From the IMG/VR virus record IMGVR_UViG_3300021519_000030, positions 1 through 35,156 of that record: a stretch of 35,156 nucleotides of DNA. One strand, written 5' to 3'. The position numbers were made by a program, and so were the translations under genes. Each line of letters begins with the position of its first letter. Position 1 is the stretch's first letter. This stretch comes from a virus. Below, piece after piece: positions 6,397 to 29,622 of the stretch. Under the pieces are notes generated by a model. It saw only the letters and a program-made list of their open reading frames with translations, did no database searches and was not told the origin of the DNA.

Positions 6397-7047
6397 TTAC
6401 GCCGGACGGCGGCGGCGGCGGGTATCAACGGGCGCGTCAACCGGCGGGGCGTTTGCCACATCCGAGTGCTGTGGGCCGTCCATTCCAATCCACGACGTGA
6501 CATCGAAGAGGGGTGTGTAGATGCGGCCATAGGACTTATGCAAATAATGTTCCACCTTCAGTAGCACGACAGGCACAGGCTTGGTGGGGTCCGCATCTAC
6601 CTGGGACGCAATCGCCAGCGCAAGCCGCTGGACTGCTTTCTTCCCTCCGACTGAAGTGACGGTGTACCGCACTTCCAGACCCTCATCTTCACCAGACATA
6701 CATCTCAGAGACATCCCTACCTGCATCTCCCAGCCGCGTTTAGCGGCTGCCGGTGCGGGGTCAGTGGCTGGCAGGGGCTGTGTCACAGGGGCCATTACTT
6801 CGCCCAAGACCTCGCCATCGCCCCACGCAATAAAGCCATGAACGAAGCTGAACGGGTTGATGGCCCACGTCGCGTCTGCCTCAACTTCAGTCTGGTCCGC
6901 ACCGAACACCCAATGGCCGGTCTTGTCCATCTTGAGCAGCGCTGCGCCCCCCTCTCCGCCCGCGCCCGTGTTGATCGCGCGCAAGCTACTGGAAAGGGAC
7001 TGCACAGATGGAAGGTTGGCGTTGCTGAATACTGTTAGATTAGCCAT
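6397..7047 (-). CDS. conserved replication-block protein, possible ssDNA-binding
   Basis: 216 aa, family not recognised. The first ~180 residues look like a beta-rich fold (DKTGHWVFGADQTEVEADA, then PFSFVHGFIAWGDGEVLGEV), and the C-terminus is a disordered Pro/Ala tail ending TRRRRRPA. It sits between the DUF2800 nuclease and the DNA polymerase, in the place where related phages often encode a single-stranded DNA-binding protein. That position is the only reason for the suggestion: the basic tail is unlike the acidic tails of bacterial SSB. The start at 7047 has AAGGAG 7 bp upstream. Confidence 0.65.
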   Translation of the reverse strand: MANLTVFSNANLPSVQSLSSSLRAINTGAGGEGGAALLKMDKTGHWVFGADQTEVEADATWAINPFSFVHGFIAWGDGEVLGEVMAPVTQPLPATDPAPAAAKRGWEMQVGMSLRCMSGEDEGLEVRYTVTSVGGKKAVQRLALAIASQVDADPTKPVPVVLLKVEHYLHKSYGRIYTPLFDVTSWIGMDGPQHSDVANAPPVDAPVDTRRRRRPA

Positions 7048-7058
7048 CTTTTTTCTCC

Positions 7059-8198
7059 TTAGATGATTTTACCAAGAGCAGCCGACAACTGTCGGCCAAT
7101 CTGCAACGCCGCCGGGCGAGGATCATCCTCGGTTGCCAACGTGTTACCCGATGAGACGGAAACGACGTGTCCCTCCGGCAGCGCGAGCTTGTGCTTCTTC
7201 AGCACCTTCTCGGCCTTCGCAGGGCTCAGGATCGTCGTTTCAATCAATTCGCTGTCGTCTAGGCCCATACCACACATGGCGGCAAAAGCGGCCTTCTCAT
7301 CTACCCACTGGCGTATTCCCCGCTTGGGGACCAGCTTGTAACCCGGCACCGGCAGACCGGACTCCAGCGTCTGCATCGCCAGCGCCCGTACTTCCTTAAT
7401 CCATCCTTCTAGCTGGTCAGCCATCTGCAAGTGTTCAGACACGCGGGCGACATCGACACCCTGCAACGCCGCGACCATCGCCCGGTCAGCCGCGCCGGTC
7501 ATCAACGGACACGTCGCCTTGGCGGCGCACCAGCGACACCAGTCGCCCACCGCCAACGGCGCGTCCGGCCTTTCCGCCAGTTTCACCGCGCGGATCAACT
7601 CACTCTCGAACAGCTTGATGCGGGCAACGCTTGTTACCCAACGCTTGATGTGCGGCGGCTGCACGATCACCAATTCAACCTTCTTCGCGCCTTCGAACGC
7701 CCACTGCGCTGACGGCGTCCGCATTGCGGCGGCGGCGTAGAACAGCAATTGTGGGTTCTCTTCAACCTCGACAGCAACGCCGTCGCCGAACTTCCAGTCC
7801 AGAATGTACGCGGTGGCGCCGATTCGCCCCACAATATCCGCAGACCCGAACACGTTAGGCAAGACAGATCCGAACGCCACCTGCACCTCAGTCTCAAACT
7901 CCATCTGCCGGTCGGGATCTATCTCTTTCAAGGCTGCCAATGCAGGCAACAGCTTGCTGTCAATCAGCTCCTGGTCCAGCGTCACCCCGGCATACTTCGT
8001 ACCAAGGAAATCTTGCGCGCCGCCTTTAGTATACCTGCCGCCCAGCACGTCCGCGATGACGTTGTGGAGCAAGGTGCCGGTGTCGGCGTAGACGCTGGAT
8101 GGTTTGGTGGGAGACTGCGCGACGAGCGCTACGGAGCCGGGGCAGTTGAGGACGCGCTTGGCGGTGGAACCGCCGACTATAGTGCTGTGTTGAGCCAT
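7059..8198 (-). CDS. DUF2800 PD-(D/E)XK nuclease
   Basis: 379-aa RecB/Cas4-type nuclease of the phage DUF2800 family. Catalytic core: FGSADIVGRIG (Asp121), YILDWKFGDG (Asp134-x-Lys136) and NPQLLFYA (Gln150, Tyr154), the QhxxY motif of RecB-like nucleases. Four cysteines, Cys19 plus Cys221, Cys224 and Cys230 in WCRWCAAKATCP, have the split one-plus-three arrangement seen in Cas4 and AddB, where they hold a 4Fe-4S cluster. It is the first gene of the leftward replication block and is likely to process DNA ends during replication or recombination. GAGGT lies about 9 bp before the ATG. Confidence 0.85.
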   Translation of the reverse strand: MAQHSTIVGGSTAKRVLNCPGSVALVAQSPTKPSSVYADTGTLLHNVIADVLGGRYTKGGAQDFLGTKYAGVTLDQELIDSKLLPALAALKEIDPDRQMEFETEVQVAFGSVLPNVFGSADIVGRIGATAYILDWKFGDGVAVEVEENPQLLFYAAAAMRTPSAQWAFEGAKKVELVIVQPPHIKRWVTSVARIKLFESELIRAVKLAERPDAPLAVGDWCRWCAAKATCPLMTGAADRAMVAALQGVDVARVSEHLQMADQLEGWIKEVRALAMQTLESGLPVPGYKLVPKRGIRQWVDEKAAFAAMCGMGLDDSELIETTILSPAKAEKVLKKHKLALPEGHVVSVSSGNTLATEDDPRPAALQIGRQLSAALGKII

Positions 8199-8269
8199 TT
8201 GATTACCTCATTGGATTGTTGACTCAGGTAGGCTAGACAATCTTTTACAAACATGCAATAGATTTCTTT
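8199..8269. promoter_or_regulatory. divergent early control region
   Basis: 71 bp separate the start codons of the leftward replication block (8198) and the rightward nuclease-helicase block (8270), so promoters for both should lie here or just inside the genes. It is AT-richer than the flanks. On the plus strand a TTGACT hexamer (8219-8224) matches the sigma-70 -35 box, and it overlaps a GACTC (8221-8225), a GANTC methylation-type site. No convincing -10 box is seen at 16-18 bp from it, so the promoter call is weak; the regulatory role is inferred mainly from gene orientation. Confidence 0.45.
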
Positions 8270-8545
8270 ATGCGGGAAAGCCAGATTGAGAAGTATTTTG
8301 TATGGGCCGTTCTTTCGAAGGGCGGCGTCACTTACAAGTTCCGGTCCCTCACGCAGCGCGGTGTGGCCGACCGAATCGCGTGTATGCCAAACGGCGAGAC
8401 ATGGTTCGTGGAACTCAAGACAAATGGCGGGCGTCTGGCGCCGCTTCAGAAACTGTTCGCTGCGGACATGCAGCGGTTGGAACAGCGGTACGCCTGCCTG
8501 TGGTCAATAGAGGGGATAGATAAATGGTTGCTATGCGTGTCCTGA
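8270..8545 (+). CDS. VRR-NUC domain nuclease
   Basis: 91-aa single-domain VRR-NUC protein, a PD-(D/E)XK nuclease type common in phages next to an SNF2 helicase. Motifs: RGVADRIACMPNG (30-42, Asp34), ETWFVELKTNGGRLAPLQ (43-60; Glu48-x-Lys50, Gln60). It probably cleaves branched or structured DNA; members of this family resolve junctions or cut flaps. It is the first gene of the rightward block. The ATG at 8270 has no clear Shine-Dalgarno sequence, which would fit a short-leader transcript from the adjacent divergent region. Its 3' end overlaps the next gene by 22 bp. Confidence 0.85.
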   Translation: MRESQIEKYFVWAVLSKGGVTYKFRSLTQRGVADRIACMPNGETWFVELKTNGGRLAPLQKLFAADMQRLEQRYACLWSIEGIDKWLLCVS

Positions 8546-9102
8546 TCGCCTGTGAGTTTTCCGGCATCTTCCGCGACGCATTTATCGCGGCGGGGCATGA
8601 CGCCATCTCGTGCGACCTAGAGCCGTCCGAACGGCCCGGACCACACATCCGGGGTGATGTTCGCCCGCTGCTGCGGGAACCCTGGGATCTGGTAATTGCT
8701 CACCCCTCTTGTCGGAGGCTTTGTAACTCAGGCGTGCGCTGGTTGGCGGAACGCGACCTGTGGGAGGACATGCGAGCGGGCGCGGCGTTCTTTCGGGATT
8801 GCCTGAACGCCAACGCCGCAAAAGTGGCGGTGGAGAACCCGGTCATGCACAGGTACGCAAGGGAGATCATCGGTCGGGGGCCGTGTTTCACCGTGCAACC
8901 TTGGCAATTCGGGGACCCGGTAAAGAAGCGCACCTGCTTTTGGACGCGCGGCAATCTGCCTGCGCTGACGGCGACATCAACCATGACTGCGGCAGACGCC
9001 AGACCCGATATTCATTTCGCATCGCCGGGGCCTAACCGCGAGAAAGAGCGGAGCCGGTCATTTCCAGGCATGGCAAGCGCGGCGGCCATCCAATGGGGCT
9101 AG
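8524..9102 (+). CDS. C5-methyltransferase-like protein
   Basis: 192-aa protein with a Rossmann-type N-terminus resembling phage cytosine-C5 methyltransferase relatives: MRVLIACEFSGIFRDAF (SAM-binding motif I-like) and CDLEPSE (motif II-like). It continues with LVIAHPSCRRLCNSG, where the usual Pro-Pro-Cys of motif IV reads Pro-Ser-Cys, and VENPVMHRYA in place of the motif VI Glu-Asn-Val. It is much shorter than a full C5 methyltransferase and no target-recognition domain is evident. It may modify DNA with an unusual specificity or be an inactive relative. AGGGG (8511-8515) supports the start at 8524; a second ATG lies at 8533. It sits between the VRR-NUC and SNF2 genes with overlaps at both ends. 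Confidence 0.6.
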   Translation: MVAMRVLIACEFSGIFRDAFIAAGHDAISCDLEPSERPGPHIRGDVRPLLREPWDLVIAHPSCRRLCNSGVRWLAERDLWEDMRAGAAFFRDCLNANAAKVAVENPVMHRYAREIIGRGPCFTVQPWQFGDPVKKRTCFWTRGNLPALTATSTMTAADARPDIHFASPGPNREKERSRSFPGMASAAAIQWG

Positions 9103-10436
9103 CTCTTAGACCCTATCAAGAAGAAGCGGCTGATTTCCTGTTCGGGCGCGACCGCGCGATGATCCTCGCGCCCGTGGGCGCGGGCAAGACGGCCATCACG
9201 CTGACGGCCATGGCCGAGATGCTCGCGGAGGGGCACGTCAAGCGGTGGCTGGTGCTGGCCCCCAAGCGCGTCTGCACGGACGTGTGGCCAGCGGAACGAC
9301 TTCTGTGGGCTCCAGACGTTGAGATAGCCGTTGCCATCGGGACACCCAAACAGCGGCGGGCGGCGTTCGAAGGGTCTGCCCCCATTGTCGTGACCAACTA
9401 CGACAACATTCAATCCCTGCCCGACCTATCAGGTTTTGACGGCGTTGTCTTTGATGAGCTAACACGGCTCAAGAACCCGTCAGGCAAGCGATTCAAGGCG
9501 CTGCTGGCGCACCTCGACGAGGTGCCCTTCCGCTGGGGCCTGACAGGATCGTTCACGTCAAACGGCCTTGAAGATGTGTTTGGCCAGTGCAAGGTGGTTG
9601 ACCAGAAGCTGCTGGGCCGCGCCAAGGGCGCGTTTCTCCAGAAGTACTTCGTGTGCGTCAACCGCGATTTTGGGGATTGGCAGCCGCGCAAGGGCGCGCT
9701 GGAGCAGGTCATGGCCGTGATCCGCCCGGCAACTTTCGTGCTGGAACCCGGCGCGTACAGCGATAAACTTCCACCGTTGCACGTTGTGCATATGCGTTGC
9801 GACATGCCCGACCGCGCCGCCTACGAGAAGATGAAACGCGATTTCGTGCTGGAGTACGGAGACGACGAGCGGATCATTGCCGCGAACGCCGCTGCCGTGA
9901 CAAGCAAGCTGCAACAGTTGGCGAGTGGTTTCTCGTACGACACCAAGACAACGGCGCTGGATGCGCGGGGCCGGTTTCGCAGACATCAGACCGCCGTCTG
10001 GTTCTCGCGGCACAAGTTCGACCTGTTGAGTGAGATATTAGAAGAGAACCAGCACGCCAATACGATCATCGTTTACAATTTTAAGGAAGAGTTAGCTGAG
10101 TTGATGCGGCGGTATCCGCAAGCGCGGACGATTGACGACTTTGACGCCATCAACCGCTGGAACGCGGGCGAGATCGAGCTGCTGTTGATCCATCCAAAAT
10201 CCGCCGGGCATGGCTTAAACCTGCAACACGGCGGCAACAAGATCATCTTCCTGTCGCTGCCGTGGTCGCTGGAACTGTTTGAGCAGACGGTAGGTAGGTT
10301 GCACCGCAGCGGCCAGACGAAAGCGGTCTGGTGTTATCTGCTGATGTGTAATAAGACTGTGGACGACCGCATCTGGGCCGCGCTTCAAGACAAGCGGTCT
10401 ACTTCAGATATAGCACTTGAGGAATTGAAGACATGA
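9093..10436 (+). CDS. SNF2-type DEAD-like helicase/ATPase
   Basis: 447-aa superfamily 2 ATPase of the phage SNF2 type. Motif I is ILAPVGAGKTAI (Lys32, Thr33), motif Ia LVLAPKRVC, motif II FDELTRLKN (Asp121, Glu122), motif III WGLTGSF, motif V SAGHGLNLQ and motif VI QTVGRLHRSGQ (398-408). It has no extra accessory domains. It probably translocates on double-stranded DNA to support replication or recombination, and its pairing with the VRR-NUC gene is a recurrent phage arrangement. The ATG at 9093 overlaps the preceding gene by 10 bp and lacks a strong ribosome-binding site, so translation is probably coupled. The end overlaps the next gene as ATGA. Confidence 0.9.
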   Translation: MGLALRPYQEEAADFLFGRDRAMILAPVGAGKTAITLTAMAEMLAEGHVKRWLVLAPKRVCTDVWPAERLLWAPDVEIAVAIGTPKQRRAAFEGSAPIVVTNYDNIQSLPDLSGFDGVVFDELTRLKNPSGKRFKALLAHLDEVPFRWGLTGSFTSNGLEDVFGQCKVVDQKLLGRAKGAFLQKYFVCVNRDFGDWQPRKGALEQVMAVIRPATFVLEPGAYSDKLPPLHVVHMRCDMPDRAAYEKMKRDFVLEYGDDERIIAANAAAVTSKLQQLASGFSYDTKTTALDARGRFRRHQTAVWFSRHKFDLLSEILEENQHANTIIVYNFKEELAELMRRYPQARTIDDFDAINRWNAGEIELLLIHPKSAGHGLNLQHGGNKIIFLSLPWSLELFEQTVGRLHRSGQTKAVWCYLLMCNKTVDDRIWAALQDKRSTSDIALEELKT

Positions 10437-14314: not shown

Positions 14315-14959
14315 TTAATACATCCCCCCGCCGGAACCGCGAGGTCCAAGCCCCCCTTGGGCTGGAGCGTAGGGCATGCCCCATCCGGGATTTGGACCGC
14401 GAGGTCCAAGCCCCCCTTGAGCTGGAGCGTAGGGCAGGGGCTCGCGAGGCAGACCGCTGATGCCGGGATCGCGAGGTCCAAGCCCCCCTTGGGCTGGAGC
14501 GTAGGGCAGGGGCTCGCGAGACAGATCGCTGATGCCGGGATCGCGAGGTCCAAGCCCCCCTTGGGCTGGAGCGTAGGGCATGCCCCATCCGGGATCGCGA
14601 GGCAGACCGCTGATGCCGGGGTAGTTTGGATTGTAGGGCACGCCGCCTCCGGGGGGAAAGCCGTGGCCGTAGGGCATCCCTCTCCCTTGGTCGTGGCGGT
14701 TCCATCCGTACCCAGAAAACCGGCGCCCCCCCTGCGGCTCTTGACGCCGCGCTAACTGATTGTACTGGTCGTACTGTCCATACGCAGACTGCTGATTGTA
14801 CTGGTCGTACTGTCCATACGCAGACTGTCCGTACGCAGGCTGCTGGTTACCCCCTTGCGGCTCTTGACGCGGCGCTAGCTGATTGTACTGGCTGTACTGC
14901 TGCATCGGGTCCGCGTGTTGCGGAGGATAGGTCTGCGGTGCAAAGTTGAAGTCGGCCAT
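14315..14959 (-). CDS. Tyr/Gln/Gly/Pro-rich repeat protein with shared N-terminal tag
   Basis: 214 aa, almost wholly low complexity. It begins MADFNFAPQTYPPQHADPMQ, a diverged copy of the tag on its two neighbours. Residues ~43-70 repeat a 12-residue QSAYGQYDQYNQ unit, resembling prion-like domains. The C-terminal half holds four copies of PYAPAQGGLGPR joined by 20- or 24-residue periods (DPGISGLPREPL linkers). No globular domain is evident. It is likely disordered and, by tag and position, a virion or ejection-associated protein. It has a normal start with the same leader as its neighbours and no stop over the whole repeat, which supports it being a real gene despite its composition. Confidence 0.6.
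   Translation of the reverse strand: MADFNFAPQTYPPQHADPMQQYSQYNQLAPRQEPQGGNQQPAYGQSAYGQYDQYNQQSAYGQYDQYNQLARRQEPQGGRRFSGYGWNRHDQGRGMPYGHGFPPGGGVPYNPNYPGISGLPRDPGWGMPYAPAQGGLGPRDPGISDLSREPLPYAPAQGGLGPRDPGISGLPREPLPYAPAQGGLGPRGPNPGWGMPYAPAQGGLGPRGSGGGMY
14341..14620. repeat. 60/72-bp tandem repeats encoding PYAPAQGGLGPR units
   Basis: The word GAGGTCCAAGCCCCCCTT starts at 14341, 14401, 14473 and 14545, with one base differing in the second copy. The periods are therefore 60, 72 and 72 bp (20, 24 and 24 codons). These encode the C-terminal repeats of the 214-aa protein. Confidence 0.85.
14756..14827. repeat. 36-bp tandem repeat encoding QSAYGQYDQYNQ units
   Basis: A 36-bp unit beginning CTGATTGTACTGGTCGTACT is found at 14756-14791 and again at 14792-14827, essentially identical, with a partial third unit following. 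It encodes the Tyr/Gln-rich segment of the 214-aa protein. Confidence 0.8.
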
Positions 14960-16362: not shown

Positions 16363-16821
16363 TCAGTCTCCTATCCATTTTGAATAATACACCTCTATAG
16401 GCGTCATATCCAGAAACTTGAACAGCCGCGACGCATCCTTATGTAGTTTGGACCCATAGAGGATGCGTTGTACTTTCCGTCTTCTAGCTTCTTTTTCGAC
16501 CGCGCGAAATAGCTTAACCCCCGCAAAGCCACCCCGTATATCAGGATGCGTCCAGAATATGTCCATTGTGAGGGTCAAGCAAGTGCTATAGTGAAGCCCC
16601 GGCGCGACTATGCCGTTGAAATATCCTACCAAACGCCCCTTCTCGCGGAGTGTCACGACCAGAAGTTCGCCCGCAGCCTCGCGCGCGGCATATACGTTGT
16701 ATTGTGGTGAGAGAGGCACTCTATCTTTGTCGAGCGCCAATTCTTCCCAATGCGCGCGGAACAGTGGTTGAACTTCCTGAACGAAGGAAGACCACGATTC
16801 AACTTGCGCCGTTATCATCAT
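16363..16821 (-). CDS. GNAT-family N-acetyltransferase
   Basis: 152 aa. GNAT motif A is recognisable: FWTHPDIRGGFAGVKLFRAV (89-108), with Arg96-Gly-Gly-x-x-Gly as the acetyl-CoA pyrophosphate loop, preceded by strands VVTLREKGRLVGYFNG and followed by RILYGSKLHKDASRLFKFLD. GNATs of this kind are often found among tail and ejection genes of P22-like phages; the substrate is unknown. It overlaps the oxygenase stop (ATGATG); AAGGAG sits 3 bp from the first ATG (16821) and 6 bp from the second (16818), so the second may be the real start. Confidence 0.75.
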   Translation of the reverse strand: MMITAQVESWSSFVQEVQPLFRAHWEELALDKDRVPLSPQYNVYAAREAAGELLVVTLREKGRLVGYFNGIVAPGLHYSTCLTLTMDIFWTHPDIRGGFAGVKLFRAVEKEARRRKVQRILYGSKLHKDASRLFKFLDMTPIEVYYSKWIGD

Positions 16822-17360
16822 GCGCTCCTTATATCAACGATGCAGACAATCCGGTCATCGCAACTGTTATTGACGACAGAATGCTCTTCGCGGTTGTTGA
16901 TAAGCCAGATGTCGCCCGTGCGGAAATTGACAGTCTCCTCCCCTATATGGAATAACGCGCCGGGCAAACTTTGCAGAGCAATCTGATAACGCGTGTAGAA
17001 CGTCGCGGGCGCGCCCATGTCCGTATGAGGTGTTATTGTATCTCCAACAGGGAGTTTCGTTACTATGCAGCGGCCCAATTGTACACCATCGACCTTGCGC
17101 ATCAGCTCAAGAATTAGCCCCCTTAGAGGCTTCAACGCGTCCCATGCCCGGTAAGGCACTACTTGTATGTCGTTGACGACAGATCCTGTAGGGTCGTTGA
17201 ACATGAGCCATATATCATGCACGGCAGCGTGCGCGGTATTAGGGTGTCTTGTGCGTAAAGTATGCTCATCCCATAGATCGCTGTTGACCGCCAACGCATG
17301 AAGTATTGGCGTTACGTCTACATTATCCGCAATCTTCAAGAAATTACGCATGAAAATCAT
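16818..17360 (-). CDS. 2OG-Fe(II) oxygenase, Asp/Asn beta-hydroxylase type
   Basis: 180 aa with the double-stranded beta-helix signature of the aspartyl/asparaginyl beta-hydroxylase family. Metal ligands are His112-x-Asp114 in TITPHTDMGA and His160 in NNREEHSVVNN; Arg170 in DDRIVCIVD is the expected 2-oxoglutarate-binding residue. All are present, so it should be active. The target is unknown: a virion protein, a host protein or a small molecule. It is coupled to the GNAT gene downstream and preceded by an 18-codon frame with an ATGA overlap. A second ATG at 17351 (MRNFLKI) is an alternative start. Confidence 0.8.
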   Translation of the reverse strand: MIFMRNFLKIADNVDVTPILHALAVNSDLWDEHTLRTRHPNTAHAAVHDIWLMFNDPTGSVVNDIQVVPYRAWDALKPLRGLILELMRKVDGVQLGRCIVTKLPVGDTITPHTDMGAPATFYTRYQIALQSLPGALFHIGEETVNFRTGDIWLINNREEHSVVNNSCDDRIVCIVDIRSA

Positions 17361-17418: not shown

Positions 17419-18741
17419 TCACTCGTACAGGACATTGACAGTGCCAGCGTCAAAGGTGCCGGTACCGCCAACCGTAGTGATACGAACTTGTGTCAATGTT
17501 GCCGCAAGAGATTTTGCGCCGCCTGTATAAAAAGTAACCGCAGTATCTGACAAACCAATGACCCCTTGCGCCGTCCAAGTGTTTCCGCTGATGTTTGTTA
17601 AAATGATAGCCCCATGTCGAACAGTGGTTGAACTTGAAGAAGCGCTTGAAGTTAATAAAATTCCAGACGAATAATTGTTGCTGGAAACAGCCGCTCCACC
17701 GCCAGTTGCCGATCCAAAATAGTTTGTTGTTTCGAACCCACTACTTGTCCCAAGTTGAATCTGAAGCAAAGCTGAGCTAGCTGTTGAAACGCCATCAAAC
17801 ATCGCCGTAATGCGCTTTACCCACGATGGAATGGACGTAAAGTCGATGTTGGTGCCGCTTGTTGAAGCTACGGCGGTCATCTGCACGATCTTTTGCGTTG
17901 CAGTGTACGAAGTTCCGTTGGTGCTAAAGGGAACCTGACCTATCGCGGTGGGCGCGATGACAGCGGGGGTAGAACTGGCCCAAGTTGTACCGTCGCTGAT
18001 CAACGCGTTGCCCGATGTACCGGGAGCCACAAACTGAACCGCAGCTACGCCGTTGCCAAGAATGACGTTGTTGGCCGTAAGCGTAGACGCGCCTGTACCG
18101 CCGTTGGCGGCGGACATGGGTGTAGTCAAACTGACAATAGTGCCGCTTGTGATTGATCCGCCGTAGATGATGTTGTTGACGAGCTGGAACGCTGTTCCGT
18201 CGTACTCCACCAGCATCATCTTGCCAGCTTGAACGTCACCGGCAGATATCGCCGCCGAGCCGTTCTTGGTGATGCTGGCAGCGGTCAGCCCATCAATGCT
18301 GAGTGTTGCCGCGCCCGTGTTGGTGTTGGCGGCAATAAAACTGTAGATCGAACCTGTTGCATACGCGGTAAGCGTGGGTGACGCCGTAGCCGTTATAGAG
18401 TTTGTCCCCGCCACTGAGCTAAGTTGGCTGTTGATGCCGAAGGGATCGTTGATAGACGGGATGTTGTCGTAGGTGCCGATTAACTCGCTTAATGAATTGT
18501 ACAGGACAAACTTCAGTAAGACGCCGCTAGTTTGCCAAACCTCATTTGGCGTCCGCCCGCCCGCGTTCAGAACTATAGGGTTAGTGTTGGCTATTGTTCC
18601 CGCGCTGGTTGTGTAGGTTGTTCGCAGCGTGGTAGTGCCCGCGTCATAACTGTACAGCAGGCCGCCGACTAGCGGAACGCCGTCGTCATCAAAGAACTGA
18701 GCGCCTGCGCCCGCGAAAGCCGAAAGGTTATAGGTTGTCAT
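17419..18741 (-). CDS. tail fibre / receptor-binding-like protein
   Basis: 440 aa, rich in Thr, Ser, Ala and Gly as expected for a trimeric beta-structured fibre. The N-terminus (GAGAQFFDDDGVPLVGGLLY, then YDAGTTTLRTTYT and NPIVLNAGGR) is a common phage tail-fibre attachment head. The middle contains a fibre-repeat unit (SAANGGTGASTLTANNVILG) also seen in the fibre gene at 27124-29232. The C-terminal ~150 residues look like a beta-sandwich ending TFDAGTVNVLYE and may contact the host. It is 9 bp downstream of another small fibre-like protein. An AGGAT precedes the ATG. Confidence 0.75.
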   Translation of the reverse strand: MTTYNLSAFAGAGAQFFDDDGVPLVGGLLYSYDAGTTTLRTTYTTSAGTIANTNPIVLNAGGRTPNEVWQTSGVLLKFVLYNSLSELIGTYDNIPSINDPFGINSQLSSVAGTNSITATASPTLTAYATGSIYSFIAANTNTGAATLSIDGLTAASITKNGSAAISAGDVQAGKMMLVEYDGTAFQLVNNIIYGGSITSGTIVSLTTPMSAANGGTGASTLTANNVILGNGVAAVQFVAPGTSGNALISDGTTWASSTPAVIAPTAIGQVPFSTNGTSYTATQKIVQMTAVASTSGTNIDFTSIPSWVKRITAMFDGVSTASSALLQIQLGTSSGFETTNYFGSATGGGAAVSSNNYSSGILLTSSASSSSTTVRHGAIILTNISGNTWTAQGVIGLSDTAVTFYTGGAKSLAATLTQVRITTVGGTGTFDAGTVNVLYE

Positions 18742-25729: not shown

Positions 25730-26095
25730 TCAAATTTGGGCCGCCTTGAAGGCCATGATCAGGTCGTTCGCGTCAGCCCCAATCTGCACTTTCAGGGCGT
25801 CGAGCACGCGGCTCGCTTTGCTCTGTTCGACGCGCTCCGTGCGCAGCAATGCGCGCAGTTTGTCGCGATATTGATAATCCGAAATAGCGCTGATCTCCTC
25901 ATCGCCGATTTCGGGCGGGATGTTCTCGACGGGCGTGGATGCGTATCCCGCCAGCGCGTCCGGCCAAGCGCCTTTCGGCAATGCCATAAGCATCGTCGTG
26001 TAGTTGCCTATGTTCATTTGATAATTGTAGACCTCCATCCCGCGATGGAAAGCATTGGCGATAAGGTTGTTGCGGTGTTCTTCGTTGGTAATCAT
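25730..26095 (-). CDS. hypothetical protein, 121 aa
   Basis: Helical, soluble protein, not recognised as a named family. It has MEVYNYQMNIGNYTTMLMAL, WPDALAGYASTP, DYQYRDKLRALLRTERVEQS and KASRVLDALKVQIG. The layout (a Tyr/Asn-rich helix, a Trp-Pro turn, then a charged coiled-coil-like helix) resembles small proteins seen beside tail genes in environmental phages. It lies between the beta-propeller and endolysin genes, with a strong AGGAGG before the ATG. A tail-assembly or chaperone role is only a guess. Confidence 0.65.
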   Translation of the reverse strand: MITNEEHRNNLIANAFHRGMEVYNYQMNIGNYTTMLMALPKGAWPDALAGYASTPVENIPPEIGDEEISAISDYQYRDKLRALLRTERVEQSKASRVLDALKVQIGADANDLIMAFKAAQI

Positions 26096-26116
26096 TTTTA
26101 TCCTCCTGTTGTCAAT

Positions 26117-27124
26117 TCAGTTAAACGCTGTCCCGCTCCCATTACCTGTGGGTAACGTTGCGGGGTTGGCGTACTTGGTCCCAAATCCAGCACTCCAGGG
26201 GTAGGTAGATATATATGGAGTGGTGGTGTGGGCCACAGCGATATCTGTTCCTGCGGGGCTAAACGCTACCCCGTTTCCGGTACTTGCGGGCAGCGTTGAG
26301 GGGTTGGCGTACTTGGTCCCAAATCCAGCACTCCAAGGGTAGGCGGCGATAAATGGAGTGGTGGCGTGGGCCACAGCGATATCTGTTCCTGCGGGGCTAA
26401 ACGCTACCCCGTTTCCGGTACTTGCGGGCAGCGTTGCGGGGTTGGCGTACTTGGTCCCAAATCCAGCACTCCAAGGGTAGGCGGCGATAAATGGAGTGGT
26501 GGTGTGGGCCACAGCGATATCTGTTCCTGCGGGATTAAACGTCACCCCATGGCCAACATTTGCGGGCAGCGTTGAGGGGTTGGCGTACTTGGTCCCAAAT
26601 CCAGCACTCCAAGGGTAGGCGGCGATAAATGGAGTGGTGGTGTGGGCCACAGCGATAGCTGTTCCTGCGGGGTTAAACGCTGCCCCGTTTCCGACACCTG
26701 CGGGCAGCGTTGCGGGGTTGGCGTACTTGGTCCCAAATCCAGCACTCCAGGGGTAGGTAGATATATATGGAGTGGTGGCGTGGGCCACAGCGATATCTGT
26801 TCCTGCGGGGCTAAACGCTACCCCGTTTCCGGTACTTGCGGGCAGCGTTGCGGGGTCGGAGTATTTGGTCCCAAATCCAGCACTCCAAGGGTAGGCGGCG
26901 ATAAATGGAGTGGTGGTGTGGGCCACAGCGATAGCTGTTCCTGCGGGGCTAAACGCTACCCCGTTTCCGGTACCTGCGGGCAGCGTTGCGGGGTCGGAGT
27001 ATTTGGTCCCAAATCCAGCACTCCAGGGGTAGGTAGATATATATGGAGTAACGTCGTGGCTCACAGCGATAGCTGTTATTTTTATTCCGGCACTATAACC
27101 CGTGAACAGGTTCAGGATGCCCAT
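26117..27124 (-). CDS. seven-bladed beta-propeller repeat protein
   Basis: 335 aa. After a short N-terminus (MGILNLFTGYSAGIKITAIA) there are seven repeats with a 46-residue period, of the form TYPWSAGFGTKYANPATLP, then GNGVAFSPAGTDIAVAHTTT. FSPAGTDIAVAH is a WD40-like strand pattern. The seventh repeat stops at GTAFN and lacks its final strand; the N-terminal TAIAVSHDVTP would supply it, closing a ring in the usual velcro manner. Two repeat types alternate irregularly: PYIST in blades 1, 3 and 7, PFIAA in 2, 4, 5 and 6. The ATG at 27124 overlaps the fibre gene stop (TAATG) and has GGGGGAGG upstream; an upstream frame extension to 27172 is rejected. It may be a fibre-tip, receptor-binding or fibre-assembly protein. 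Confidence 0.75.
   Translation of the reverse strand: MGILNLFTGYSAGIKITAIAVSHDVTPYISTYPWSAGFGTKYSDPATLPAGTGNGVAFSPAGTAIAVAHTTTPFIAAYPWSAGFGTKYSDPATLPASTGNGVAFSPAGTDIAVAHATTPYISTYPWSAGFGTKYANPATLPAGVGNGAAFNPAGTAIAVAHTTTPFIAAYPWSAGFGTKYANPSTLPANVGHGVTFNPAGTDIAVAHTTTPFIAAYPWSAGFGTKYANPATLPASTGNGVAFSPAGTDIAVAHATTPFIAAYPWSAGFGTKYANPSTLPASTGNGVAFSPAGTDIAVAHTTTPYISTYPWSAGFGTKYANPATLPTGNGSGTAFN
26120..27043. repeat. 138-bp tandem repeats (6.7 copies)
   Basis: The segment containing TTGGTCCCAAATCCAGCACT recurs every 138 bp (46 codons) with very few differences. The differences cluster at a few codons and recur in different combinations among copies, suggesting gene conversion or unequal recombination between units. 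Confidence 0.9.
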
Positions 27125-29232
27125 TAGGTGAGCCCTCCCCCGGTAACGACAAACGTATTGGACGCGACGCAAAGGATTGTGCAGAGCCCTCGCTGCGCCA
27201 GCGTTCGGTTTCCAGTAGTTGCTGTTCCCACCAGATACATCGTGGTGGACGCCCCCTGCGTGATTGTCTGGTTGGAAGCCGAGTTGTTAAAAATTGTCAC
27301 GGTATCGCCCACGGAAAAGACGCTTGCAGGGACCGTCACGCCGCCCGTGGTGATCGAGATGTGCTTACCGTTGTCGCCCGCGACCAGTATGTAGGCCGAA
27401 GTCTGCGAATTAACAGGAATATTTAGATAGCCGATGCTCGCGCTAGCGGGCGGGAACGTCATCACAGTGCTATCGGTGCCCGCCAATGTCAGCGTGTTAC
27501 TGACAGTCAAGGTCTTCGAAGTCGTGCCCCCGGCAACAGTAAACCCAACTGCGGCAGCCGCCAGCGTCAGGCCGTTGACACTCGTCGGAGTGATCGCGCC
27601 AAGGGTCAGGCTGATGGCTGGCGTTGTTGTGGCGGTCGCCACAGACCCAGATACGCCATTGGCAGTCGTGACGGAGACCGATGTGACAGTGCCTGCGGCA
27701 GCGGCTGCCCATGCTGCCGTTGTACCGTTTGATGTCAGCACCTGCCCATTCGTGCCAATGGCAAGGCGCGTAGAGCTATTGGTGCCGTTGCCGACAATCA
27801 GATCGCCGGTCGTTGTCACAGGCGCCAGCGCATTGAACCCCGCCGTGGCCGTAGTCTGGCCAGTGCCGCCGTTGGCAACGGCAAGTGTTCCTGCAAGTGT
27901 TATGGTGCCGGATGTAATAACGGGTCCGCCACTGGTAGTTAAACCCGTTGTGCCGCCGCTAACGGCAACACTGGTAACCGTGCCTAGCCCGCCTACAGTA
28001 GTCCATGTAGGTGCGCCAGCGCCTCCAGACGTAAGCACTTGCCCTGACGTGCCAGCCGCCGAATAGGCAAGGGCAGTGCCCGTGCCATATGGGACAGTAC
28101 CCGCCGTAGGTGTTGCGGTGGTGTTGGTGCCGCCGTTAGCAATAGCAAGCGTACCGGCAAGCGTTATAGTGCCCGACGTAGTGACAGGGCCGCCACTATA
28201 GGTTAATCCTGTTGTGCCGCCGCTAACATTGACACTTGTAACAGTGCCAGTTCCAGAGGGGGTGACCCATGTGGGCGCCGCAACGCCATTAGATTGAAGA
28301 AATTGGCCCGCCGTGCCTGCGGTCAAGTAAGCAAGCGCAGATCCGGTTCCGTAAAGCAGACTGCCATTTGCCGGTGTAGATGCAAGGCCGGTGCCGCCAT
28401 TAGCAATAGCAAGCGTACCCGTCACGCCAGTCAAAAGAGGAAGCCCGGTAGCATTTGTCAGCGTGCCGCTGGATGGTGTGCCAAGTGCGCCGCCATTGAC
28501 CACAACAGCGCCCGCAGACCCTACATTTACGCCCAGCGCCGTTACAACGCCCGTACCAGTTGTTGTTGTTGCGGGCGATGCGCCCGCGCCGCCGCCAATC
28601 ATGATGGCGTTTGCGGTCAACAGAGCTGAAGTTGCCCACGTTGACGCGCTACTAAAGTATGGGATGCCCCCGGAAGTTCCAGCAACTGTCAGAGCCAACG
28701 TGCCTGAGTTCGTAATGGGAGACCCGGATACCGAAATAAGGCCGCCCGTAAACGACTGAGCTACACTGGTAACCGAGCCCGCCCCTGCGGCGTCCCATGT
28801 AGGCGCGCCCGCACCACCAGATTTAAGCACATACCCCGCCGTACCAACCGCCGAGTACGCCAACGTAGAGCCGTTACCATATGGTATTGTTCCCGCCGTA
28901 GGTGCGTCGGCGGGTCCAAGCTGAAGCGTTTTCGTGGCCGAAAGCGTGATGAATACATTCTTAACGCCTGCTTGAAAAGAAACGACAAGATTGCTGTTCG
29001 AAGACGACAAGATGGTGGTGCGGGCAAAAACATTGGCGCTGGAATAGGTGCCAATACCCACTTCCCATTCGGCTGTAGTTTGGCTTTGTATGCAGTAATA
29101 AAACGTGTCCGCAGCGCTTAATACGGTAGAAAAAGTCCGATATCCCGTAGGCGATGCGCCGGAGACAGTAATGCTCCCGGTGCCCGTTGTGGTCGAAGTG
29201 TCCTTGACACGATCTGCGGTTACAAAGGCCAT
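27124..29232 (-). CDS. repetitive tail fibre protein, 702 aa
   Basis: The N-terminal ~105 residues (MAFVTADRVKDTSTTTGTGS; GYRTFSTVLSAADTFYYCIQ; EWEVGIGTYSS; FARTTILSSSN) form a fibre-attachment head common in phages. Residues ~105-560 are degenerate repeats of about 65 residues with units such as TAGTVPYGTGTALAYSAAGT, SGGAGAPTW and LAIANGGTG, typical of a long trimeric beta fibre. The C-terminal ~90 residues (GKHISITTGGVTVPASVF; TIFNNSASNQTITQGAS) look like a capping domain. It lies between the portal-DUF5856 pair and the beta-propeller gene, which it overlaps by one base. It is probably the main adhesin shaft or a side fibre. Confidence 0.75.
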   Translation of the reverse strand: MAFVTADRVKDTSTTTGTGSITVSGASPTGYRTFSTVLSAADTFYYCIQSQTTAEWEVGIGTYSSANVFARTTILSSSNSNLVVSFQAGVKNVFITLSATKTLQLGPADAPTAGTIPYGNGSTLAYSAVGTAGYVLKSGGAGAPTWDAAGAGSVTSVAQSFTGGLISVSGSPITNSGTLALTVAGTSGGIPYFSSASTWATSALLTANAIMIGGGAGASPATTTTGTGVVTALGVNVGSAGAVVVNGGALGTPSSGTLTNATGLPLLTGVTGTLAIANGGTGLASTPANGSLLYGTGSALAYLTAGTAGQFLQSNGVAAPTWVTPSGTGTVTSVNVSGGTTGLTYSGGPVTTSGTITLAGTLAIANGGTNTTATPTAGTVPYGTGTALAYSAAGTSGQVLTSGGAGAPTWTTVGGLGTVTSVAVSGGTTGLTTSGGPVITSGTITLAGTLAVANGGTGQTTATAGFNALAPVTTTGDLIVGNGTNSSTRLAIGTNGQVLTSNGTTAAWAAAAAGTVTSVSVTTANGVSGSVATATTTPAISLTLGAITPTSVNGLTLAAAAVGFTVAGGTTSKTLTVSNTLTLAGTDSTVMTFPPASASIGYLNIPVNSQTSAYILVAGDNGKHISITTGGVTVPASVFSVGDTVTIFNNSASNQTITQGASTTMYLVGTATTGNRTLAQRGLCTILCVASNTFVVTGGGLT

Positions 29233-29256: not shown

Positions 29257-29622
29257 TCACGTTAGAAACTTGAGTTTGTACAGAGTTGTAAGGTACAAGC
29301 CCACAATTTCATCAATGATATTTTGCAGCGGAGTGTCTTTCTCATCCACCACTTCGTACCGGCAGGCTTCTATCTCGGTTAATTGAATCTCCAGAAATTC
29401 AACTACGTTAGTAGTCTTCTTAGCCGTCTGAAGACCAATCCCGCCAATAAGCCCGTGACGGCCCTGATACATCTCCGCAAAGGTGTCCGCCAGCTCTGCG
29501 ATGTTTTTGTAGAATTTCTCGAGCGCCTTATGCTTGGCAAAGCTACGGGTGTTCAAATGAACGGAATGCGTGACATCCCGCGCCAGAAACAGATAGCCTA
29601 CAAAATCCGCCGCTTTTTTCAT
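29257..29622 (-). CDS. DUF5856-type protein, 121 aa
   Basis: Helical protein with AADFVGYLFLARDVTHSVHL, then KHKALEKFYKNIAELADTFA and EMYQGRHGLIGG. This matches DUF5856, a phage family of four-helix, Dps/ferritin-like appearance. His and Glu residues in the helices could bind metal, but this is not certain. The function is unknown. Its ATG overlaps the portal stop (ATGA), so it is made together with the portal. Confidence 0.7.
   Translation of the reverse strand: MKKAADFVGYLFLARDVTHSVHLNTRSFAKHKALEKFYKNIAELADTFAEMYQGRHGLIGGIGLQTAKKTTNVVEFLEIQLTEIEACRYEVVDEKDTPLQNIIDEIVGLYLTTLYKLKFLT

Follow-up and report, generated by a model that had tools for sequence, protein, structure and literature searches.

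What does a phage gain from a gene built of near-identical repeats and placed directly behind a tail-fibre gene? This question is raised by the IMG/VR virus record IMGVR_UViG_3300021519_000030, analysed here over its 35,156 bases (hereafter, the window), in which an array at 26117-27124 had been predicted, from the letters alone, to encode a seven-bladed propeller. The window carries a P22-type portal (PF16510, E 2.8e-174) and a major head protein (phrog_283), and the propeller gene belongs to a podovirus. Judging from sequence and predicted structure, we consider it likely that the gene product is a WD40-like seven-bladed propeller, most probably placed at the tip of the neighbouring tail fibre, where it would bind the host surface. 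New in this analysis are a set of diversifying columns on one face, a near-obligate partner gene, and a fibre-type domain upstream, behind which other phages carry adhesin-like proteins.

The 46-residue repeats described in the original prediction are real: Tandem Repeats Finder reports a 138-bp period at 26156-27033 (6.4 copies, 91% matches, score 1462), and the array lies within a 335-amino-acid (aa) gene on the minus strand. Six units have 46 aa (138 bp) each and the seventh has 43 aa, with pairwise differences of 2-29 nucleotides per 132-138 (lowest between units 5 and 6, with 2, and highest between units 1 and 4, with 29). The two variants seen earlier, YIST and FIAA, are indeed mixed irregularly, in the order Y,F,Y,F,F,F,Y. 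The longest exact repeat within the array is 90 bp, below the usual read length. A second, independent contig (L335) can be aligned with the window across 4677 bases and differs from it at 4 positions. These mismatches are confined to the 45 bases where the contig breaks off inside the array, and it therefore confirms the last two blades only. As signs of gene conversion the four differences are ambiguous, since they sit at the contig end. Plus-strand open reading frames (ORFs) in the region were dismissed as chance readings of the repeat.

Structure prediction with AlphaFold2, using a 36-sequence alignment, returned a closed ring of seven blades with 21 strands (predicted local distance difference test score, pLDDT, 84.1; predicted template modelling score, pTM, 0.86). 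The modelled chain begins in strands b-c-(d) and terminates in strand a (residues 329-334), so that the closing blade is composed of N-terminal b, c and d plus C-terminal a, the Velcro type of closure; a closed propeller sealed by an N-terminal strand is what had been anticipated. The top match by VIA-align was the seven-bladed designer protein 7bid (v31WRAP-T; Z 40.0, root-mean-square deviation 1.8 over 284 residues, model residues 17..335), followed by further WRAP proteins and the YVTN propeller 1l0q. Foldseek agrees (E 5.9e-18), and the alignment profile ranks WRAP constructs first among PDB sequences (6r5y, E 2.2e-5); 6-phosphogluconolactonases also appear among the structural matches. 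Since the WD40 profile PF00400 has no match in the window protein, "WD40-like" is the fitting term rather than membership of the WD40 family; nine of 36 relatives match this profile at E up to 0.1 (best 1.4e-9). Pfam assignments to GGDEF_2 (27.6 bits, cut-off 24.5), HAT_PRP39_N and DUF4883 were rejected, as no single stretch passes in the window protein and the model contradicts them. In relatives these three look like summed weak repeat matches, with GGDEF_2 above its cut-off, and automatic annotation may misname proteins of the family.

Variation between blades was examined in 131 non-redundant proteins comprising 1199 blades, by comparing the blades of each protein with one another and counting synonymous and non-synonymous differences (pN/pS, bootstrapped over proteins) at divergence cut-offs of 10, 15 and 25%. 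At the 15% cut-off (56 proteins), pN/pS reached 2.18 (1.81-2.55) at column 7, 1.90 (1.56-2.24) at column 37 and 1.57 (1.24-1.94) at column 35, with column 8 borderline at 1.19 (0.88-1.51); all columns except 7, 8, 11, 33, 34, 35 and 37 gave 0.21 (0.18-0.24). The same four columns lead at 10% and 25%, column 7 being the highest (3.61 and 1.45, respectively; column 35, 2.39 and 1.25; column 37, 2.06 and 1.39; column 8, 1.62 and 1.03; frame columns, 0.30 and 0.22). The lower 95% limits of columns 7, 35 and 37 exceed 1 at all three cut-offs, and those of column 8 are below 1. These counts indicate purifying selection on the frame and an excess of amino-acid change at columns 7, 35 and 37, with column 8 borderline. 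The columns were first noticed in a smaller set, which forms part of the larger set used for the retest; this makes the test less than fully independent.

In the predicted model, columns 7 and 8 fall in the b-c loop after strand b, and columns 35 and 37 at the d-a turn. The b-c and d-a turns lie on the same face of a propeller, and by this topology the four columns would share one face. The loop columns vary equally between blades of one protein and between phages.

One may suppose that the propeller was recently amplified and that its loops are merely free to vary, without diversifying selection. Propellers have often arisen by amplification of a single blade (PMC9218822), and pN/pS falls towards 1 at the 25% cut-off; however, the lower limits above 1 at columns 7, 35 and 37 and the values below 1 elsewhere in the loops, for example at columns 36 and 38, make this very unlikely. 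Local pS at the diversifying columns is not raised. A diversity-generating retroelement as the source of the variation found no support: a motif scan (no reverse transcriptase profile search was made) found reverse transcriptase-like ORFs only in two loci, L098 and L099, and third bases are mixed at the variable columns.

The blades of the window have also recombined with one another. A block of seven sites (pattern 1010001) and a block of three sites (1100000) occur in all four combinations, a four-gamete incompatibility that supports the homogenisation proposed earlier, since recurrent mutation of whole blocks is unlikely. Across the family, variation at frame columns 1, 14, 19, 25, 42 and 44 is 0.56-0.72 times as large within proteins as between them. 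Homogenisation is partial and column-specific: of 479 blades, just 118 find their closest counterpart within the same protein.

At least 598 relatives were retrieved from IMG/VR with a single query, and among 50,697 deposited phage records five match, one of them closely (MW202701, itself derived from an environmental sample); the family is common in viral metagenomes and nearly missing from deposited phages. A scan of bacterial and archaeal genomes returned two contigs of metagenome-assembled genomes (MAGs) only, and no host. In one locus, L087, a small ORF separates two propeller genes (6649-9542). The contig is assigned to the MAG of an archaeon, Nitrosotalea; the neighbouring genes resemble those of bacterial phage, so misbinning is likely. 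PHROG 19311 and PHROG 10655 are similar in sequence to the window propeller (E 3.7e-17 and 1.2e-12, with 23 and 17 of 36 members matching, respectively) but are listed as of unknown function.

Blades were counted in 145 distinct complete proteins from 333 loci. Seven blades were found in 99 proteins, 14 in 31 and 21 in four (three regular, and L152 irregular), so that, with L152 left aside, exact multiples of seven occur in 133 of the 145; 11 proteins had other counts. The spacing from ring to ring is about 5-7 residues longer than the usual blade spacing. Part of the odd counts can be put down to faulty detection or to degenerate blades (L153, perhaps L077); L001 (8 blades) and L064 (6 blades) look genuine, though assembly collapse or expansion could also explain them. 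In one pair of sister phages, L106 and L071, the arrays agree in the first eight blades that were compared and again in the final two, and the downstream flanks are 99.7% identical, with L106 having two blades fewer. Gain or loss of blades therefore appears, from these comparisons, to occur but seldom to last: the suggestion that blades are gained, lost or converted holds as to exchange between blades, and is weakened as to gain and loss by a family fixed at seven per ring. Two further candidate pairs were set aside, L131/L132 because the compared arrays are different proteins (L132 has a 5-unit and a 7-unit array), and L034/L110 because they have no blades in common. The irregular L152 is a 1971-residue ORF of about 21 blades and some 900 further residues, with a partner-type ORF before it.

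The genomic position of the propeller would fit a virion protein. Next to the tail fibre, as originally noted, it lies directly behind the fibre gene: the fibre stop TAA and the propeller ATG share one base (TAATG). Of 112 loci, 87 have in front of the propeller a gene whose product finishes with one of four fibre-type domain types, no more than 25 residues from its C-terminus; 28 of these have the window's own type. Phages without the propeller carry adhesin-like proteins behind the window-type domain: a Gly_rich_2 protein in MW202483 (E 1.1e-22, with the same one-base overlap and a terminase 65.6% identical to that of the window), a Gp38-adhesin match in Sphaerotilus phage R1 (25.9 bits, cut-off 25) and a Laminin_G_3 protein in S-B28 (E 1.1e-12). 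In the loci examined, two N-terminal peptide types of the propellers, WTL...WP and RG..SA.GFG, are seen again on proteins that are not propellers; in L024 and L030 the WTL...WP terminus is found on a different repeat protein beside the propeller, which suggests an exchange of heads on a shared N-terminus. The shared slot and the shared peptides place the propeller among interchangeable adhesins, and the N-terminal peptide of the window protein, MGILNLFTGYSAGIKI, is a possible docking peptide.

In the same interval of DSL-LC05, whose terminase is 72.1% identical to that of the window, lie tailspike genes, with a tailspike of the pectate-lyase type among them. They form part of the evidence for an adhesin slot. 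The pectate-lyase-type tailspike, together with the lactonases among the structural matches, could also point to an enzyme, namely a lactonase-type or polysaccharide-cleaving propeller. We regard this as extremely improbable: no catalytic match was found, the lactonase similarity is one of fold only (10-16% identity), and the near-identical blades show no distinct active site. As a binding protein, the propeller may possibly be a glycan-binding lectin.

Directly downstream of the propeller lies a small gene for a helical protein. In an iterated profile search, relatives of this partner occupied that position in 115 of 129 loci (shuffled-sequence control, 0 of 3580), and among 14,711 ORFs of the same loci the profile gave 317 matches adjoining propellers versus 7 elsewhere. 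Reciprocally, a propeller directly precedes 56 of 56 distinct partner homologues with upstream DNA, nearly all of which are of an 88-aa type (query L097), the window partner as query having given only two loci. The partner is modelled as a helical hairpin (pLDDT 97.8); it has no PDB fold match below E 1 and no convincing family was found, nor does it match any PHROG. It may act as a chaperone for the propeller or in its docking. Our reading also suggests a role both for this small gene and for PHROG 19311 and 10655.

Two further explanations bear on these observations. The propeller could be a structural piece of the virion that serves the fibre as a cap, spacer or decoration and takes no part in host recognition, its loops following the phage's own partner proteins. 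The constant ring number, the near-obligate partner and the structural neighbourhood are all in line with this, yet equal loop variation within proteins and between phages is easier to reconcile with a changing ligand than with a fixed contact, and we hold this explanation to be unlikely. Alternatively, it could be an intracellular propeller whose loops track changing host proteins, for example in counter-defence. One-face diversification suits any recognition role, but the structural-gene neighbourhood, the position behind a fibre-type domain and the adhesin-like proteins that fill the same slot elsewhere render this quite unlikely. In a host-binding propeller at the fibre tip, every blade would contribute its b-c and d-a loops to a single diversifying face for binding. 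Recombination among blades would spread frame changes and reshuffle loop variants, and the helical protein would aid folding of the propeller or its docking on the fibre.

Several points weigh against a fibre-tip propeller under diversifying selection. The pN/pS values drop with rising divergence cut-off, and they are simple counts over blades joined by recombination rather than a fitted codon model. The window's own blades vary little at columns 7, 8, 35 and 37. The fibre function of upstream domain types B-D is read from sequence only, the Gp38 match barely exceeds its cut-off, and glycine-rich proteins match easily. We give about even odds to the broader proposal that these propellers represent an undescribed class of host-recognition module common in uncultured phages, with a fibre-tip propeller of fixed blade number, a frame kept uniform by blade exchange, one diversifying face, and a dedicated partner found almost only with it. 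"Undescribed" here rests on a search of open-access literature, covering only part of the literature, in which no description of the family was found.

Table 1. Features of the propeller locus (positions in the window).
Feature	Position	Strand	Remarks
Partner gene	25730..26095	minus	121 aa, helical; directly after propeller
AGGAGG ribosome-binding-site-like stretch	26096..26107	minus	before partner gene; from sequence
Propeller coding sequence	26117..27124	minus	335 aa; ATG at 27124, stop codon 26117-26119
N-terminal peptide MGILNLFTGYSAGIKI	27077..27124	minus	16 residues ahead of ring; low model confidence
Repeat unit 1	26939..27076	minus	residues 17-62
Repeat unit 2	26801..26938	minus	
Repeat unit 3	26663..26800	minus	
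Repeat unit 4	26525..26662	minus	
Repeat unit 5	26387..26524	minus	
Repeat unit 6	26249..26386	minus	
Repeat unit 7	26120..26248	minus	43 aa; ends in strand a (residues 329-334), closes ring with N-terminal strands
Tail-fibre-like gene	27124..29232	minus	702 aa; stop overlaps propeller start by one base
Fibre C-terminal domain	27127..27480	minus	residues 585-702; common to other phages' fibres

Between the portal and the fibre, a minus-strand gene (29257-29622) encodes a DUF5856 protein (PF19174, E 3.3e-22; PHROG "starvation-inducible transcriptional regulator"), relatives of which occur in 17 of 125 propeller loci. Elsewhere in the window, another fibre-like gene, which contains an ANGGTG motif, lies at 17419-18741 (minus strand), followed by ORFs resembling GNAT (16363-16821) and 2OG-Fe oxygenase (16818-17360) proteins, all three named by eye. 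A 14-bp unit, GCAATAAAGCAACC, stands in nearly four perfect copies at 140-193, and a 72-bp tandem repeat (2.6 copies, 96% matches) lies within an ORF at 14394-14580.

Among known systems, the closest in form are the WRAP propeller of Nostoc punctiforme Npun_R6612 and the designed WRAP-T (2ymu, 7bid), which likewise are WD40-type rings of seven near-identical blades that were amplified recently and close in the same manner (PMC6805158, PMC9218822). The Nostoc WRAP is a cyanobacterial domain with about 24% identity to the window protein and, unlike for the phage propeller, no diversifying columns are reported for WRAP in the excerpts used. In position, the counterpart is Gp38 (PF05268), described as the tip receptor-binding protein of the tail fibre (PMC12892980). 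Its gene lies directly behind the fibre, in the same slot, and both proteins are presumed to be fibre caps; Gp38 has a glycine-rich fold without blades, unlike the propeller, and its profile has no match in the window propeller. In behaviour, the phage propeller resembles the HNWD (NWD) proteins of Podospora anserina, which act in fungal non-self recognition and in which two codon pairs at the top of the propeller are under positive selection (PMC2873952). In both, homogenised repeats would carry diversifying codons on one face, here at columns 7/8 and 35/37 (by simple counts; columns 7, 35 and 37). HNWD proteins have a NACHT domain before the propeller, whereas the 335 aa of the window protein consist of 16 residues and the ring. 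The likeness is one of behaviour and not of descent, and we claim no kinship beyond the fold. Uniform-frame repeat proteins with variable contact residues are a recurring answer to changing targets; the phage propeller offers a compact version in which the number of blades is fixed, natural variants run into the hundreds and a partner gene is present, which makes the link between loop variant and host choice testable. In HNWD the repeat number is unstable, whereas the phage propeller is locked at seven blades per ring.
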